Origin: Planctomycetota bacterium
GTDB lineage: Bacteria > Planctomycetota > Phycisphaerae > Sedimentisphaerales > Anaerobacaceae
DNA length: 37,881 nucleotides
NCBI GenBank assembly: GCA_023135865.1
Contig: JAGLSG010000002.1
Coordinates: 1 to 37,881 of the forward strand
Direction: 5' to 3'
In this document: positions 1,837 through 25,226 of the stretch, piece by piece
Numbering within the stretch: the stretch's first letter is position 1
Layout: each line of letters opens with the position of its first letter
The notes under the pieces: model-generated
What the model was told of the DNA's origin: nothing
The model's input: only the letters and a program-made list of their open reading frames with translations
Database searches by the model: none
Made by a program: the position numbers and the translations under genes

Positions 1837-4056
1837 TTAGATAGCAATTTTATTTTTGGTTTTAATTTCGACCTGTAGTAAGCCAGTCGAATCTATTACG
1901 ATTTGTTTTGTTTCATCGCCTTCGGTTGTTATTACGCCGTTAGCTGTTATAAGTTTTACAATAGTTTTTCTTTTTGCTCGCTGCATTTTTCCCTGCTTAC
2001 TTAGTATCTCGACAATTACTTTCTCGCCGATTTTTCTTGCCGCATATTTTGTCAGCAGATACCGGCCTTTGCGATAGCCGAAGCCATCGCCTGCATCTTC
2101 ATATAATGTTCCCTCTGCCAGACCGTTTTCGTCAAGGCAAACGAGAAGTGTAAGCGGGTCGAGCGAATCTTCGGTTGTATTTTGCACAACTTTTCCGAGC
2201 GGAATAATTGCTCCGGAGCGAATTTTCAAAACCGGCTGATTTGCATCCTTTGCCGGATTTTCGCCGACGAGTGAAATTTCTCGCCAAACGCCGGTTAATT
2301 CAGGAACAGTTTCTTTTGAACTTTCCTTTAATTGTGGTTCGACCAGTAAATCACCGCCGAGCAAAAAAGCACTATCTTCGCTTCGCAATTTCAAATTGGT
2401 TGGCTCAGCAAAAAATAATGGCCGCATTACGGGCAAACCCGTAACAGATGCTTCGTAAAATAATGTGTAGAGATACGGCAAAAGTCGATAGCGTCTTTCA
2501 AGTGCTGCTCGGCAGCTCCGCTCAACATTTTCGCCAAAGCTCCACGGCTCTTTGTCCATATTGCCTTTACAGGTGTGGCCGCGTGCAAACGGAAGCAACG
2601 CTCCAACGCCCATCCATCGAGCGAATAATTTACCGTCGCCATCTTCGCAGAATCCGCCAATGTCCGGGCCGCTGAACGGCTGGCCGGACAGGCCAAGATT
2701 CAAAGCCATAGAAACCGAATCTTCCAAATGATTCCAATCGGAAGTATTATCTCCCGTCCACGTGGCTGCGTAACGATGGCCGCCGATGAAATTGGCACGT
2801 GTTAAAACGAATGGCCGTTTGTCGGGATTGGCTGTTAGAATTCCTTCACGTGTTGCGCGAACCATCAGCATACCGTAAACATTGTGATATTGTGCGTGCG
2901 TGCCTTGCGGCAATTTTCCGCCGCCTCTATGAACATTATCCAGCGGCATTGTGCCTGTTGCTGATTTGAAAACAGCCGGCTCATCCATATCATTCCAAAC
3001 GCCGTCAATTCCTGTAGCCATAAAATCTTTGTAAAGACCAGCCCACCATTTTCGAGTTTCCGGTCGCGTGAAATCCGGGAACGCACAATCGCCCGGCCAA
3101 ACCTTGCCATTATATTCTTTGCCGTCAGCGGTTTTTACCCAATGGTCGCCGGAGCAGCCCTGGTCATAAACGAAGTAACCCTTTTCAGCTTTTACGCCCG
3201 GGTCAATCATCCATATTGATTTGAATCCCATTTTATGAAGAGCGTCATTTAGTTCAGCCGGATTTGGAAAACCTTTTTTGTCAAAGGTGAAAATTCTAAA
3301 GCCGTCCATATAATCGATGTCCATCCAGATTACATCGCAGGGGATATTTCTGCTGCGAAAGCCGTTGGCGATTTCCATTACGCGGCTTGCCGGATAATAC
3401 GACCAGCGGCACTGATGGTAGCCGAGCGACCATCTCGGCGGAAGCGGCATTTTGCCAATCAAGTTGGCCAAAGCCGTTAAAACTTCCTGCGGCGAATTGC
3501 GGTTGATAATAATTACCGGAAAATTTTCAGCGGAACTAAATTCTATTCCGTTTACAAGATTCACCCAGCATTTATAAGTGGTGTCAGCGAGAACGCCAAA
3601 AGCAGTTCCATCTTTGCGGACAGCCAATACCCACGGATGAGATTGATACAGTGAATCGTTCAACCGATTGTAGCCGAAGCAGTCCTTGTTCCAGCAGGCG
3701 ATTGCTTTGCCATTTCTAAGAAGTGAACCAGCTACTTCGCCTGTTCCGTACAGACTTGTTCCATCTTCTATTTTGATTTTTGCCGAGTAGCGGCCAAGTC
3801 CATCTTTGCCGAAAGAGGGCATCGGTCTAAAAGATTTGTCCACTGAACCGATTACGACCGGCTCATTTTCCAGCGCCATTGAAAGCGGCAATTGATTCGG
3901 CTCAATTCCGGGTGCATAAAAACGAGCAATACCATCTGCGAGCAGCTGCGATTTGCCAGCCAGCTTGGAGCAACTTCCGCTGACAATTACGAGCAGCAGA
4001 ACAGACGCTGTCGTAATTTTTGCCAACACATTCAATTGTCTTTTGGTATCTGCCAT
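1837..4056 (-). CDS. GH31 family alpha-glucosidase/alpha-xylosidase-like lipoprotein
   Basis: Retaining alpha-glycosidase of family GH31 that hydrolyses terminal alpha-linked glucose or xylose. The 739 residues begin with a basic stretch, a hydrophobic segment (about residues 14-25) and Cys29 in VSGSC, which suggests an exported lipoprotein; the lipobox is weak. Family motifs are the N-terminal beta-sandwich up to about residue 200, DVIWMDIDYMDG (about 241-252), the nucleophile Asp356 in GVWNDMDEP, and the acid/base Asp436 in TWTGDNTSDW. A C-terminal beta domain follows. No good ribosome binding site precedes ATG 4056. The gene lies between groEL copy 2 (51-bp gap) and groES (15-nt gap) on the same strand, an odd place for a glycosidase. 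Substrate cannot be decided from sequence alone. Confidence 0.9.
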   Translation of the reverse strand: MADTKRQLNVLAKITTASVLLLVIVSGSCSKLAGKSQLLADGIARFYAPGIEPNQLPLSMALENEPVVIGSVDKSFRPMPSFGKDGLGRYSAKIKIEDGTSLYGTGEVAGSLLRNGKAIACWNKDCFGYNRLNDSLYQSHPWVLAVRKDGTAFGVLADTTYKCWVNLVNGIEFSSAENFPVIIINRNSPQEVLTALANLIGKMPLPPRWSLGYHQCRWSYYPASRVMEIANGFRSRNIPCDVIWMDIDYMDGFRIFTFDKKGFPNPAELNDALHKMGFKSIWMIDPGVKAEKGYFVYDQGCSGDHWVKTADGKEYNGKVWPGDCAFPDFTRPETRKWWAGLYKDFMATGIDGVWNDMDEPAVFKSATGTMPLDNVHRGGGKLPQGTHAQYHNVYGMLMVRATREGILTANPDKRPFVLTRANFIGGHRYAATWTGDNTSDWNHLEDSVSMALNLGLSGQPFSGPDIGGFCEDGDGKLFARWMGVGALLPFARGHTCKGNMDKEPWSFGENVERSCRAALERRYRLLPYLYTLFYEASVTGLPVMRPLFFAEPTNLKLRSEDSAFLLGGDLLVEPQLKESSKETVPELTGVWREISLVGENPAKDANQPVLKIRSGAIIPLGKVVQNTTEDSLDPLTLLVCLDENGLAEGTLYEDAGDGFGYRKGRYLLTKYAARKIGEKVIVEILSKQGKMQRAKRKTIVKLITANGVITTEGDETKQIVIDSTGLLQVEIKTKNKIAI

Positions 4057-10249: not shown

Positions 10250-10268
10250 AAATTCGTATTTCGTATCT

Positions 10269-10373
10269 TGTCATTGCGAGGCCTGTCTTGTAGGCCGCGG
10301 CAATCTTGATTTTGAACTTTGAGATTGCTTCGCTTTGTCCTTCGACAAGCTCAGGACTTTGCTCGCAATGACA
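10269..10373. repeat. 105-bp composite palindromic repeat, copy 1
   Basis: Lies between nfnA and nfnB. It begins TGTCATTGCGAG and ends CTCGCAATGACA. Inside are a small hairpin GGCCT...AGGCC and an inserted palindrome TCCTTCGACAAGCTCAGGA. A second copy at 14205-14309 differs at five positions by hand alignment. Confidence 0.9.
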
Positions 10374-10383
10374 TTTTGTGATT

Positions 10384-11256
10384 TTACTTTTTACGCTCTG
10401 TTTTTTTATCTAATCCTATTTTACATTTATGTTCTTTATATTGTTCAAGTGCTTTTTGTTCGTGATTTTTATAAGCGTTTAATCTTTTGAGCATTAAATC
10501 GAAGTTGACTTTATGGCCATCAAATTCCGGCCCGTCAACGCAGACGAATTTTGTTTCTCCGCCGATTTCAACTCGGCATCCGCCGCACATTCCCGTGCCG
10601 TCAATCATAATTGTATTGAGCGAAACATCCGTCGGTACATCAAATTGCTTTGTTACTTCGCAGCAGAATTTCATCATTACAGCCGGCCCGATTACAAATA
10701 CTTTGTCCGGCTTTTGCTTTCGCTGACAAATTTCTTTTAAGGGTTCGGTTACGAGTGCCTTTCGGCCGAGCGAGCCATCATCGGTAGTTACGATTAGTTC
10801 ATCGGAAATTGCGGCAAATTCACTTTCGAGAATTAACAGCTCTTTGTTTCTTGCTCCCAAAATGCTGATGATTTTATTTCCTTGTTTCTTAAGAGCCGTT
10901 GCGATTGGCAGCAGTGGCGCGCATCCGATTCCGCCGCCGACACAAACCACTAGTCCGAAATTTTCGAGATGAGTTGGTTTGCCGAGAGGGCCGGCTATGT
11001 TTTCTATTGTTTCGCCGACTTTCAAATCAGCGAGTTCTGTGGTGGTTTTGCCGAGCCGCTGCCAGATTAGCCGAATTGTGCCTTTTTCGGCGTTGGAAGC
11101 TGCAATTGTCAGCGGAATCCGCTCGCTGTATTCACTGTTTATAGCGAGAATTATAAACTGGCCGGGCTTTGCAGCTGAAGCAATCAGTTCAGCGGACACG
11201 TCAATAGCAAAAACGTTTTCAGAAAGCTGCTCTTTATGTATAATTTTATGCGACAT
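10384..11256 (-). CDS. nfnA: NfnA / sulfide dehydrogenase-like FAD/NAD-binding subunit
   Basis: 290-residue ferredoxin-NADP reductase family protein. It has an FAD site RIPLTIA (about 46-52), an NAD-binding VCVGGGIGCAPLLPIA (about 104-119), and a [2Fe-2S] site with ligands Asp219, Cys224, Cys227 and Cys239. The Asp-Cys3 ligand spacing matches NfnA of the bifurcating Nfn complex. PyrK-like dihydroorotate dehydrogenase subunits are the alternative but lie with pyrD. An upstream ATG at 11307 would add 17 residues, but it overlaps the -10 box of the promoter at 11298-11326; the internal start MSHKIIHKEQ matches the family, so 11256 is preferred. It is the first gene of the nfnA-nfnB operon and diverges from trxB. 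Confidence 0.88.
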   Translation of the reverse strand: MSHKIIHKEQLSENVFAIDVSAELIASAAKPGQFIILAINSEYSERIPLTIAASNAEKGTIRLIWQRLGKTTTELADLKVGETIENIAGPLGKPTHLENFGLVVCVGGGIGCAPLLPIATALKKQGNKIISILGARNKELLILESEFAAISDELIVTTDDGSLGRKALVTEPLKEICQRKQKPDKVFVIGPAVMMKFCCEVTKQFDVPTDVSLNTIMIDGTGMCGGCRVEIGGETKFVCVDGPEFDGHKVNFDLMLKRLNAYKNHEQKALEQYKEHKCKIGLDKKTERKK

Positions 11257-12556: not shown

Positions 12557-12695
12557 AAAGCTAAAAACTTAAAGTGTAAAACTCAAAACCAAAATTCAAA
12601 GCTTAAAATTTTTGACTGCAACTTAAACCGGACATTGGCAGCTTTGAGTTTTAAGCTATGGTTTTTAGTTTTAAACTTTTAGCTTTAAACTTTGT
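12557..12695. repeat. AT-rich imperfect inverted repeat, copy 1 (possible bidirectional terminator)
   Basis: Fills the 153-bp gap between the convergent trxB and trxA. The left arm is built of AAAGCTAAAA and GTAAAACTCAAAACC-type units and the right arm of their complements (TTGAGTTTTAAGCTATGG, TTTTAGCTTTAAACTTT). Its right arm is nearly the same as that at about 19753-19801. Position and T-rich arms suit a two-way terminator. Confidence 0.7.
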
Positions 12696-14164: not shown

Positions 14165-14185
14165 CCCTGAGCGCAGTCGAACGGG
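14165..14185. repeat. Short CCCTGAG...CGGG palindrome
   Basis: A 21-nt palindromic unit beginning CCCTGAGCGCAGTCGAA, related to the TCCTTCGACAAGCTCAGGA unit. It is preceded by ATTCGTATCTCGTATTGCG-type sequence that recurs in the insert in dxs. Confidence 0.5.
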
Positions 14186-14204
14186 TGAAGCGTATATCGT
14201 TATT

Positions 14205-14309
14205 TGTCATTGCGAGGCCTGTTTTTCAGGCCGCGGCAATCTTGATTTTGGGCTTTGAGATTGCTTCGCTTTGTCCTTCGACAAGCTCAGGACTTTGCTC
14301 GCAATGACA
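14205..14309. repeat. 105-bp composite palindromic repeat, copy 2
   Basis: Same length as copy 1 at 10269-10373, with five differences. Three fall in the small hairpin, where the stem is kept or improved (GGCCTG/CAGGCC). It lies in the trpS-scpA spacer, so it is transcribed with the operon like copy 1. Confidence 0.9.
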
Positions 14310-14349
14310 TTCTGCGATTCCACAGTTTTAATTTTTTAGCTTTAAATTT

Positions 14350-15350: not shown

Positions 15351-15520
15351 AGTTTGAAACTTAAAACTAAAAGCTAAAAACCACAGCTTAATCCGTCTTC
15401 GCTAAAGCTACTACGGACAGGAATCCAAAACCGCCAACATCTGTTTTGCCGAGCGGCAGCTGAAAATTTTAAGCTTTGAACTTTGGTTTTGAGCTTTAAA
15501 CTTTAAATTTTTAGTTTTTT
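15351..15520. repeat. AT-rich imperfect inverted repeat, copy 2
   Basis: Arms built of AACTTAAAACTAAAAGCT units (left) and TTTGAGCTTTAAACTTTAAA units (right), like the elements at 12557-12695 and 19661-19801. The centre differs and here contains the 26-nt palindrome at 15392-15417. It lies between trpS and the toxin gene. Confidence 0.65.
15392..15417. repeat. 26-nt palindromic repeat, copy 2
   Basis: Stem TCCGT/ACGGA around the same core as 1470-1495 (TCTTCGCTAAAGCTAC), again followed by CAGG. The stem differs from copy 1 but remains paired. Confidence 0.7.
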
Positions 15521-16397: not shown

Positions 16398-16483
16398 GTC
16401 ATTGCGAGCGAAGCGAAGCAATCTCAACCTTTCACACCTTTCACGCCTTATTTTTCACATTTTATCCTGAGCTTGTCGAAGGA
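16398..16483. repeat. Un-nested forms of the composite palindromic repeat
   Basis: 16398-16425 starts GTCATTGCGAGCGAAGCG and ends GCAATCTC; it is the complement of the right half of the 105-bp repeat but without the inner unit. 16465-16483 is that inner unit alone, TCCTGAGCTTGTCGAAGGA. Both lie in the 455-bp gene-free stretch before dxs. Confidence 0.8.
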
Positions 16484-16534
16484 TTTCACAGTTTTTTTTA
16501 GCTTGAAATTTTATTTGGCCGTTTTTTTTATTGC

Positions 16535-16685
16535 GTCCATCTATAAATAGAGCAACTTGCGCGTTTGATGCGAAAAAAGACCTTTTTAGCGTTCGCACTT
16601 TTGGCGTAAGTTGATATAATCAAACGGTTAAAATTTTTTTTCATTTTTGCCATTTTGTGTTTTGAGGTGCACAGCTTTTGATTGA
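16535..16685 (+). repeat. 151-bp element, copy A (opposite orientation to copy B)
   Basis: Aligned as reverse complement, without gaps, to 23388-23538: 112 of 151 bases agree by hand count. The outer 50 and 44 bases are about 90% alike and the middle is not. It fills the region just upstream of dxs. Strand is given arbitrarily as the one reading toward dxs. No open reading frame or terminal inverted repeat was recognised. Confidence 0.85.
16592..16620 (+). promoter_or_regulatory. Promoter of dxs
   Basis: TTCGCA (16592-16597), 17 bp, TATAAT (16615-16620), giving a leader of about 75 nt. It lies in the variable middle of the 151-bp element, and copy B lacks these boxes. Confidence 0.6.
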
Positions 16686-16703
16686 AATTTTGATGGGAAA
16701 TAA

Positions 16704-18674
16704 ATGCTTGAAAAAATAAATAGTCCTGATGACCTAAAAACGCTCTCTGTAGCTGAGTTAGAAGAGCTTGCAGAAGAAATCCGACAGTTTATGCTGGTCT
16801 CCGTAGGCAAAACAGGCGGACATCTCGCCAGCAGTCTCGGCGTGCTCGAACTTACGCTGGCTCTGCACAGCGTATTCGACTTCAAAAAAGATAAACTGCT
16901 CTGGGATGTCGGCCATCAGTGCTATGTGCATAAAATACTGACAGGAAGAAAAGAGCTGTTTGCAAAACTGCGGCAGCGTGGCGGAGTCAGCGGCTTTCCA
17001 AATCCAGATGAAAGCGATTACGACCAGTTCGCCGTCGGACACGCAGGAACTTCAATCGCAACAGCTATCGGAATGGCGCTGGGAGAAGAATTGAGAATTG
17101 AGAATCCTTCGGCTGGGCTCAGGACAGGTGTAGAATTGAGAAATAAAGACAACCAACCCAATACGCAATACACATCACGCAATACGAATAAAATTGTGGC
17201 TATCGTCGGCGATGCGAGCATTGTAAACGGTGTCTCGTTTGAAGCACTCAACAATCTCGGCTTGGTAAAAAGACAGCTGCTCATCGTGCTGAACGATAAT
17301 TCAATGGCTATCGACCAGACGGTGGGGGCATTGGCGAAATACTTTTCAAAGATTCGGCTGAGCCAGACCTACGAAGATATGCGAAATACCTGTAATAATA
17401 TACTCGAACATCTGCCGGTTATTGGAAAGGGCGTTGAGGGAATTATCGAGCGGATTAAAAAGACTATACGAATGACTCTGCCGGCCAGCCAAATGTTTGA
17501 GAGTTTGAATATACCGTATTTTGGCCCGGTGGATGGACACGATATAGATTCGCTAAAGCAGCTGTTTGAGGAAATCGGCCAGCTGAATCGGCCGGCAATT
17601 CTGCACGTCTATACGAAAAAAGGTAAGGGATTTTCGCCGGCTGAACAAGACGGAAGAAGATTTCATTCGACAGGCCCGTTTGAGATAAACGGCGACAGTG
17701 TAAAATCAGATGCAGTTAAAACACAGAAAAGTTTTACAGAAGTTTTCGGCGACCACCTTGTTGAATTGGCTGAAAAAAATGAAAAAATCGTGGCAATCTC
17801 GTCAGCAATGTGTGACGGGACAGGGCTGGAAAAATTCAGAGAAAAATTCCCAAAAAGATTCTTCGATGTCGGAATCGCTGAAAGTGCCGCTGTTGATATT
17901 GCAGCGGGAATGGCGAAAGTCGGATTAAAGCCGGTGGTCTGTATTTATTCAACGTTTTTGCAGAGAAGTTTCGACCAGCTCTTTCAGGAAGTTTCATTGC
18001 AGAACCTGCCAGTCGTTTTCTGTATCGACAGAGCCGGCCTGGTCGGTTCCGATGGGCCGACACATCACGGAATGATGGATATTGGTTTTCTGCGAATGCT
18101 GCCAAACGTTACTTTGATTGCTCCGGCAAGCGAAAAAGAAATGCAGCTCGCATTGGAATTCGCATTTGAGCAAAACAGCTGCGTGTGTATTCGCTATCCA
18201 AAAGACAGCGTGCCAAATGGCGATTTCGATAAAAACAGCGGCTTATTAAAACCGTTTGAAATGGGAAAAAGCGTTACGGTAAAAAGCAGTCCCGATTCAA
18301 AAGTGGCTGTTGTCAGTTATGGCTGTATGCTGGCCGAAGCTATGAAAGCTGCGGAAATACTCGAAAAAGAAAATATCCAAATCGACGTAATCAACGCGAG
18401 ATTTGCAGCGCCGATTGATGAAAAAATTATTGAACTTTTGGCCGCCGGCAAGCATATAATAACTGTCGAAGACCATCGAATTTCAGCTGGTTTTGGCTCG
18501 GCGGTTCTCGAAGCGGCGGCGGAAAAAATGGAATTCGGCCGAAAAACCGGCAAAATCACTGTTCTCGCAGCGCCAAAGAGGTTTATAAAGCACGATTTAA
18601 GGAAAGCTCAACTGGATACCATCGGCGTAAATGCCGATAAAATAGTAGAAACAGTAAAAAGTATGAAAGTGTGA
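16704..18674 (+). CDS. dxs: 1-deoxy-D-xylulose-5-phosphate synthase
   Basis: Thiamine-diphosphate enzyme that condenses pyruvate and glyceraldehyde 3-phosphate, the first step of the MEP isoprenoid pathway. The 656 residues show the N-terminal KTGGHLASSLGVLELTLALH and WDVGHQCYVHK, the TPP motif beginning GDASIVNG and ending LNDNSM (GDA instead of the usual GDG), FGPVDGHD, the pyrimidine-domain segment FDVGIAESAAVDIAAGMA, and DRAGLVGSDGPTHHG. Residues about 129-162, between GMALGEE and KIVAIVGD, are a stretch some 25-30 residues longer than usual that is encoded by intergenic-type repeat sequence (17088-17189). The insert keeps the frame. GGGAAA lies before ATG 16704. It probably heads a dxs-nadK transcript. 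Confidence 0.96.
   Translation: MLEKINSPDDLKTLSVAELEELAEEIRQFMLVSVGKTGGHLASSLGVLELTLALHSVFDFKKDKLLWDVGHQCYVHKILTGRKELFAKLRQRGGVSGFPNPDESDYDQFAVGHAGTSIATAIGMALGEELRIENPSAGLRTGVELRNKDNQPNTQYTSRNTNKIVAIVGDASIVNGVSFEALNNLGLVKRQLLIVLNDNSMAIDQTVGALAKYFSKIRLSQTYEDMRNTCNNILEHLPVIGKGVEGIIERIKKTIRMTLPASQMFESLNIPYFGPVDGHDIDSLKQLFEEIGQLNRPAILHVYTKKGKGFSPAEQDGRRFHSTGPFEINGDSVKSDAVKTQKSFTEVFGDHLVELAEKNEKIVAISSAMCDGTGLEKFREKFPKRFFDVGIAESAAVDIAAGMAKVGLKPVVCIYSTFLQRSFDQLFQEVSLQNLPVVFCIDRAGLVGSDGPTHHGMMDIGFLRMLPNVTLIAPASEKEMQLALEFAFEQNSCVCIRYPKDSVPNGDFDKNSGLLKPFEMGKSVTVKSSPDSKVAVVSYGCMLAEAMKAAEILEKENIQIDVINARFAAPIDEKIIELLAAGKHIITVEDHRISAGFGSAVLEAAAEKMEFGRKTGKITVLAAPKRFIKHDLRKAQLDTIGVNADKIVETVKSMKV
17088..17189 (+). 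repeat. Repeat-derived in-frame insert within dxs
   Basis: About 102 bp (34 codons; edges approximate). It consists of GAATTGAG units (as at 25141-25226), TCCTTCGGCTGGGCTCAGGA (17106-17125, related to the inner unit of the composite repeat), and ATACGCAATAC/ACGCAATACGAAT units (complement of the sequence near 14149). It encodes a polar, low-complexity stretch. Confidence 0.7.
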
Positions 18675-19649: not shown

Positions 19650-19660
19650 ATCTGAAGTAG

Positions 19661-19801
19661 AAAAGTTTAAAATTTAAAGTGCAAAGTGTAAAATCATAAT
19701 TTAAAATTTAAAGTTGAAGACAAAAGAAGTCGCGAATTATCCTTTTTTAGTTTTGAGTTTTAAACTATGGTTTTTAGCTTTTAGCTTTAAACTTTTAGTT
19801 T
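19661..19801. repeat. AT-rich imperfect inverted repeat, copy 3
   Basis: Left arm AAAAGTTTAAAATTTAAAGT and right arm TTGAGTTTTAAACTATGG followed by TTTTAGCTTTAAACTTTTAG; the right arm is nearly the same as that of copy 1. It lies between nadK and the TPR gene. Confidence 0.7.
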
Positions 19802-19819
19802 TTCTGTACGAGGTTTAAT

Positions 19820-23387: not shown

Positions 23388-23538
23388 TCAATCAAAAGTG
23401 GTGCGCCTCAAAACATAAAATGCCAAAAATGAAAAAATTTTTTACCGCTTTAGCTTAAACAACTTATCAAAAATCACCATTAAAAAAATTCAGCTTTTTT
23501 CGCATCAAACGCGCAAGTTGCTCCAATTATAGAGGGAC
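23388..23538 (-). repeat. 151-bp element, copy B
   Basis: Inverted partner of 16535-16685, of the same length. Conserved ends: TCAATCAAAAG...AATGAAAAAA at the left, and TTTTTTCGCATCAAACGCGC with GGGAC at the right. It lies between the helicase gene and the portal gene. The rest of the spacer 23539-23642 carries only an AGGAAAG ribosome binding site for the portal gene. Confidence 0.85.
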
Positions 23539-25140: not shown

Positions 25141-25226
25141 AATTAAAAATTTAGAATTTAGAATGTAGAATTTATGAGATGGAATTTAGCAAGAATATTT
25201 CTCAATTCTTAATTCTCAATTCTACA
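25141..25226. repeat. AATTCTTAATT-type inverted repeat
   Basis: Left arm GAATTAAGAATTAAAAATTT, right arm CTCAATTCTTAATTCTCAA, between the portal and scaffold-like genes. Related units occur at 4061-4105 (before the GH31 gene) and in the dxs insert. Confidence 0.55.

Follow-up and report, generated by a model that had tools for sequence, protein, structure and literature searches.

The gene for 1-deoxy-D-xylulose-5-phosphate synthase (dxs) of this planctomycete carries, inside its reading frame, an insert that resembles the repeats of the surrounding spacers, and this insert is real. In our reading, to which we give a probability of about 0.86, intergenic repeats have invaded a permissive helix-to-strand loop in a frame-compatible and tolerated manner, and the peptide that they encode has not been selected for. 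The reading is carried by the identity of the repeats, the size of their unit, its in-frame position, the recurrence of the phenomenon across genera and the variety of frames and orientations. The window (the whole stretch of DNA analysed, 37,881 nucleotides) is part of a 1.69-Mb draft genome in 129 contigs which is 94% complete. Its DXS matches TIGR00204 over the full length (E 8e-198) and retains the catalytic and TPP residues, and its named relatives come from Phycisphaerae/Sedimentisphaerales assemblies. Outside the loop, the dN/dS of dxs relative to the sister species is 0.10, which indicates that the gene is under purifying selection there.

The initial annotation proposed that about 34 codons of dxs are made of units otherwise seen only in the spacers of the window, and that they lengthen the protein by about 25–30 residues. 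The 34 codons are indeed found at 17088-17189, where the dxs frame runs through GAATTGAGAATTGAGAA, TCCTTCGGCTGGGCTCAGGACAGG, TGTAGAATTGAGAAATAAAGACAA and CCAACCCAATACGCAATACACATCACGCAATACGAAT: GAATTGA heptamers are followed by a palindrome, by more heptamers of the same kind and then by heptamers of the (ACGCAAT) type, all of them in frame (Table 1). The loop between GMA and GDAS has 43 residues. Among 66 loci of other phyla, 61 have 16–17 residues there (the other five could not be measured), and the excess of 26–27 residues agrees with the proposed value. The DXS of the sister species (G048), which is 90% identical, has a loop of 21 aa. An RNA element in this region was rejected, as the Rfam scan gave nothing credible, its single match (E 0.27) being far below the gathering score.

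Table 1. Coordinates of dxs, of the components of its expanded loop and of related repeats in the window.
Feature	Position	Strand	Remark
dxs, 1-deoxy-D-xylulose-5-phosphate synthase, 656 aa	16704..18674	+	complete frame
Expanded loop, residues 126-168 (GMA to GDAS), 43 aa; family 14-65	17079..17207	+	
Heptamer tract 1, GAATTGA-GAATTGA-GAA	17088..17104	+	from the sequence; inside the 58-nt composite match
24-bp palindromic core TCCTTCGGCTGGGCTCAGGACAGG, 8 codons	17105..17128	+	1 mismatch to genome consensus
Post-core heptamer tract TGTAGAATTGAGAAATA	17129..17145	+	belongs to the composite unit
Heptamer tract 2, degenerate (ACGCAAT)n, peptide NTQYTSRNTN	17154..17189	+	type common to G063 and G048
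Start of TPP-binding motif (GDAS)	17208..17219	+	directly after the post-loop strand
Palindrome core copy, spacer	10341..10355	+	
Palindrome core copy, spacer	14166..14181	-	3 mismatches to the 24-mer
Palindrome core copy, spacer	14277..14291	+	
Palindrome core copy, spacer upstream of dxs	16466..16480	-	
Tandem GAATTGAG-type heptamers, spacer	25199..25222	-	

The 24-bp core, TCCTTCGACNNNGCTCAGGACAGG, has 52 copies in the genome when up to 3 mismatches are allowed, most of which are outside long ORFs, and 23 exact copies of the palindrome pattern TCCTTCGNNNNNGCTCAGGA are present; the reversed controls give 0 in both cases. Across 23 core copies, conservation is 0.87–0.96 through CAGG (positions 20–23, which are outside the search pattern and yet conserved), then drops to 0.57 one base further on; ahead of the first base it is 0.48. 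The unit is therefore 24 bp long. Its fold is weak (about -3 to -4 kcal/mol), and inspection of the six reading frames reveals a stop in one of them only. In the window, TTCGN{2,6}GCTCAGG is present 5 times versus 0.09 expected, with one copy in dxs and the other four in spacers, and GAATTGAG 8 times versus 1.8 expected (three times within dxs). The notion that such units are otherwise confined to spacers is correct in the window for the palindrome and the tandem heptamers, but not for the bare 8-mer GAATTGAG, which is also present inside the ORFs at 3901, 24649 and 27422, and at the scale of the genome it fails for the palindrome as well, which lies inside four genes. A whole-genome search shows that the first 58 nt of the dxs insert match G000:C57:5427-5484 (G000 being the source genome) with 88% identity (E 7.6e-15). 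Further composite copies on contigs C64, C57, C96 and C91 match the insert at 85–87%, and the palindrome of the composite copies is likewise embedded in GAATTGAG heptamers.

The candidate routes for the copying of the core are a Y1/RAYT-type transposase, template switching and recombination. The first is central to an alternative according to which the units are REP elements that owe their mobility to a RAYT (TnpA_REP) transposase and hit genes by chance. REPs of the GTAG/CGTC superfamilies are palindromes of 20–40 bp, mostly intergenic, which have also been described inside genes (PMC3733652). The core is likewise a palindrome of this size with many copies in spacers, and five PF01797 genes of the RAYT type are encoded in the genome. 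However, the conserved 24 positions of the core contain neither a GTAG nor a CGTC tag, its 24 bp are a multiple of three, no association with the PF01797 genes was found (a survey of their five loci gave no core copy at up to 3 mismatches), and the alternative leaves the heptamer arrays unexplained. A REPtron, with the core beside Y1 transposases, was likewise looked for and not found in this survey of the five PF01797 (Y1-type) genes. We regard mobilisation by RAYT as unlikely, but it concerns only the dispersal of the palindrome and is compatible with the invasion of a permissive loop.

Comparison of the loop sequences shows that the insert is two-layered, with an older heptamer layer that is alike in kind across the family and a young palindrome that is specific at the species level. 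The nearest comparable loop, from another genus (G063), has 35 aa and no palindrome. It can be aligned with that of G000 over 105 nt without any gap, with 73% identity, once exactly the 24-nt palindrome is omitted; when all possible 24-nt removals are compared, the best gap-free fit is obtained at the position of the palindrome, tied with the neighbouring base. The palindrome is also missing from the sister species G048, which of the heptamers retains only CAACGCAATACGAATAA. The absence of the core from both G048 and G063, together with the gap-free fit, thus points to a young palindrome and older heptamers. The initial annotation had asked whether the insert is lineage-specific: this is the case of the palindrome, but the heptamer layer is widespread in the family. 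In genus g12, one genome (G025) has its own palindrome, CCCTTCGACAAGCTCAGGG, in a loop which is 8 aa (24 nt) longer than that of its sister G024.

The family was sampled as 20-kb stretches around dxs from 74 genomes; all the genomes used are probably metagenome assemblies, and most are drafts. Across the family, the site is an expandable loop at a common position, with lengths from 14 to 65 aa and sequences that are unrelated between genera. Roughly half of the family has short loops of 14–18 aa (about 16). An ordinary conserved family loop was rejected, given these unrelated sequences, and the observation that had been named as the one to contradict an invasion, the same insert conserved in distant DXS proteins, was not made: only the position is shared.

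A period of 7 is detected in the DNA of 21 of the 33 long loops (at least 24 aa), with p≤0.02 in each, when the best period-7 stretch of 21 nt is compared with windows of the same length from the same gene. The control lags of 4, 5, 6, 8–13 and 15 are detected in 0–3 long loops each, whereas the counts for lags 14 and 21 increase together with that for lag 7. Nine of the 33 have period 7 at p>0.05, so that some expansions may not have been made by repeats, or may have decayed. The heptamer word differs between genera (e.g., CGAGATA in G019, GTCCATC in G020, CCGCAAT in G079, CAAAATT in G060 and ACGCTAT in G013). The loop of G013 matches two places of its own genome at 92–93% over 53–54 nt, and the best match is a spacer copy (93% over 54 nt, in the one case tested genome-wide). 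On a dxs tree built without the loop, the loop label changes at least nine times, gains and losses being mixed.

The loop lengths cluster at 21, 28, 35 and 42 aa. Of 36 genus-length classes, 16 have a length divisible by 7, compared to 5.1 expected, with a p value of about 1e-5 (9e-5 after class correction) for a pattern that was spotted post hoc; other moduli give nothing. We take these lengths as a lead, which matches the prediction of expansion by steps of 21 bp, that is, three heptamers. DXS has another expandable loop close to its C-terminus, which carries heptamers SQNAIRNTQYAIRVLGAP in G060 (L189 9053-9094), and the dxs of G015 (L190) has further inserts at reference residues 317 and 336.

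Variation of this kind across the family, from 14 to 65 aa, could also characterise an ordinary hypervariable protein loop, whose likeness to spacers would result from local slippage and base composition, with no dispersal between loci; slippage alone would yield a period of 7. However, slippage cannot make a 24-bp core whose arms are the same as in 51 other places, and it cannot account for the matches of 58 nt (G000) and 54 nt (G013) between the loop and unlinked spacers of the respective genome. Moreover, a gap-free fit to another genus is restored by omitting the core. This explanation is very improbable, and the unlinked matches already refute most of it.

The initial annotation had also recommended that the proteome be scanned for translations of the repeat. 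The survey covered about 0.33 Mb of the own genome and about 1.2 Mb of relatives, in addition to genome-wide pattern searches; the core was searched in all of the own genome and the heptamers in about a fifth of it. Among the best 30 core copies of the source genome, four are within ORFs of at least 150 aa, and all four are in frame in conserved genes: dxs, glmM (PVLSNVEG, antisense), thpR (HVLSKVEG, antisense) and recG (DPSTPLRAG, sense). The core insert is absent from the ThpR of 10 relatives. In the glmM of the sister species, two sense copies stand in tandem, 38 nt from each other and in two frames, and occupy the same loop as the single antisense copy of the source genome. The peptides derived from the core differ according to frame and orientation (NPSAGLRTG, PVLSNVEG, DPSTPLRAG, PFDSAQGR).

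Regarding the heptamers, a sample of 1.49 Mb, 88% of which is coding, contains 44 lag-7 tracts inside ORFs and 63 outside, versus 0–12 in total for other lags; inside ORFs, the control lags 4, 5, 8, 10, 11 and 13 give 0–2 tracts each. Strict heptamer tracts are found in dxs in 8 of 72 genomes versus 18 of 875 other ORFs (p 4e-4), a ratio that is rough because the sample is centred on dxs and the ORF calling was simple. Heptamer tracts are also present in rsmB, in two genera and at the same place before LLDVPC, and in dnaA, lnt and genes of TPR proteins in several genera. In the own genome, in-frame heptamers SSSLVARRSSLK are found in an S55-peptidase-like protein (L217:6132-7991, weak Pfam match), and others in a GGDEF protein (L199:8166-9260, SQYAIRNTQ).

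The persistence of the loop in many genera, and the recurrence of in-gene copies in the same loops of sister species (dxs, glmM), might be taken to mean that the inserted peptide is functional and that the repeats were recruited as a regulatory or interaction loop of DXS. We give this idea little credit, if anything slightly less than hypervariability, since the peptides are wholly different between genera, the same core is read in varied frames and orientations, and about half of the family has loops of the short class. An assembly or binning artefact, conceivable in a draft of 129 contigs, can be dismissed almost entirely: the dxs copy is 12% diverged from its spacer relatives, the frame is open in a gene under purifying selection, and the same class of insert is present in independent assemblies of other genera.

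In the AlphaFold model of the protein (mean pLDDT 81), which matches solved DXS structures, the insert is a low-confidence loop between helix 117–133 and strand 164–168, which leads into GDAS; the pLDDT is below 50 at residues 142–146, 151–153 and 155–158. According to sequence alignment, E. coli DXS has only four residues (140–143) across the same gap. In alpha/beta folds, helix-to-strand loops lie on the side of the protein opposite the active site. The DXS loop, which connects the end of the helix to the strand ahead of the TPP motif, would also be on that side. Inspection of the sequences indicates that the inserts of GlmM, ThpR and RsmB likewise precede a strand.

We propose that intergenic repeat DNA has entered a surface loop that is permissive to it, and that the frame was left intact. 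Since 24 bp correspond to 8 codons and the core is free of stops in five of six frames, insertion of the whole unit keeps a gene open almost anywhere. In an array of 7-bp units, each of the three frames is visited within 21 bp. A unit that lacks stops is therefore open whichever frame is used, and the frame of the gene is preserved only if the array changes by three units at a time (21 bp, 7 aa). This one loop has been filled independently in many genera, and the words differ among them. Selection would let inserts live there because the loop would be located away from the active site, which would explain the repeated hits. A loop seeded in this way could be remodelled further by slippage and by recombination with other copies in the genome. 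Selection probably acts as a filter only, since it is the frame that is conserved and not the peptide.

The initial annotation likened the insert, in principle, to the Rickettsia palindromic elements (RPE), which were reportedly described by Ogata in 2000. To our knowledge, in-frame "selfish" repeats in conserved genes are mainly those of Rickettsia and Wolbachia, usually with a single insertion per case. RPE are palindromes of 105–146 bp with long stems, which are fused in frame in 19 genes and have little effect on the enzyme that was tested (PMC2229807). The dxs element works like RPE and Wolbachia WPE, in that spacer repeats are found in frame in conserved genes (here dxs, glmM, thpR and recG), in several frames, and are apparently tolerated. 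Yet size, stem and taxon all exclude it from the RPE: its unit measures 24 bp and forms a weak hairpin, it is embedded in heptamer arrays, and it is found in Planctomycetota, where one loop is re-used across genera, whereas RPE are confined to Rickettsia. The in-frame fusions of enterobacterial RU/MITE (PMC2759123, PMC2229807) are also small mobile repeats read within proteins, but these are units of 103–168 bp with terminal repeats. With these qualifications, the initial interpretation is supported.

The heptamers recall the STRR of cyanobacteria, whose described host range is heterocystous cyanobacteria, and copies of which are said to have been found by Vioque in 1997 inside the RNase P RNA gene. 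The heptamer repeats of Beggiatoaceae, cyanobacteria and Bacteroidetes are spacer repeats, and the TAACTGA repeats of Beggiatoaceae carry stops when they are translated (PMC4679880). The arrays described here are similarly degenerate 7-bp tandem repeats, dispersed and enriched in spacers, but the host belongs to Planctomycetota and not to cyanobacteria, and, unlike arrays that lie in spacers or RNA genes, these are stop-free and translated in conserved proteins, often in the same loop. A literature search in which few subscription journals were covered returned no report of the core, either by DNA word or by its peptides, nor of heptamer repeats of such kind in planctomycetes.

A broader proposal has odds only a little better than even: in planctomycetes of the Sedimentisphaerales type, the 24-bp palindrome and stop-free heptamers may be dispersed genome-wide, by a process that is still active, into spacers and into helix-to-strand loops of housekeeping enzymes, so that these loops would evolve by import of spacer repeats, dxs being a recurrent target in more than 20 genera. 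The filling of one loop of an essential enzyme many times by different repeats leaves footprints that can be counted (period 7, length steps of seven residues, 24-bp units), from which one could measure how frequently genes take up spacer repeats, identify the loops that tolerate them and see whether any of them ever turns out to be useful. It also illustrates a concrete route from non-coding DNA to protein sequence in bacteria, and calls for caution, as the variation in DXS length in this group would be made by repeats.

Other repeats were observed in the spacers of the window. The segments 16530-16690 and 23388-23538 form an inverted pair, 79% identical over 151 nt, whose members are the sole two copies in the genome and which flanks a 6.7-kb block with dxs and the following genes. 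A direct spacer repeat of 138 nt (10255-10392 and 14191-14328, 89%) contains in each copy a TTCGACAAGCTCAGG palindrome and a word of the GCGAAGCAATCTC type. The spacers 12557-12694, 15456-15519 and 19658-19804 are full of heptamers of the (TTTAAAC)/(GTTTAAA) type, in both orientations. Outside the class, a genome of the same phylum (G092) contains 27 copies of CCTTCGACNNNGCTCAGG versus 0–2 in most other sampled planctomycete genomes, which suggests that the distribution of the core is patchy.
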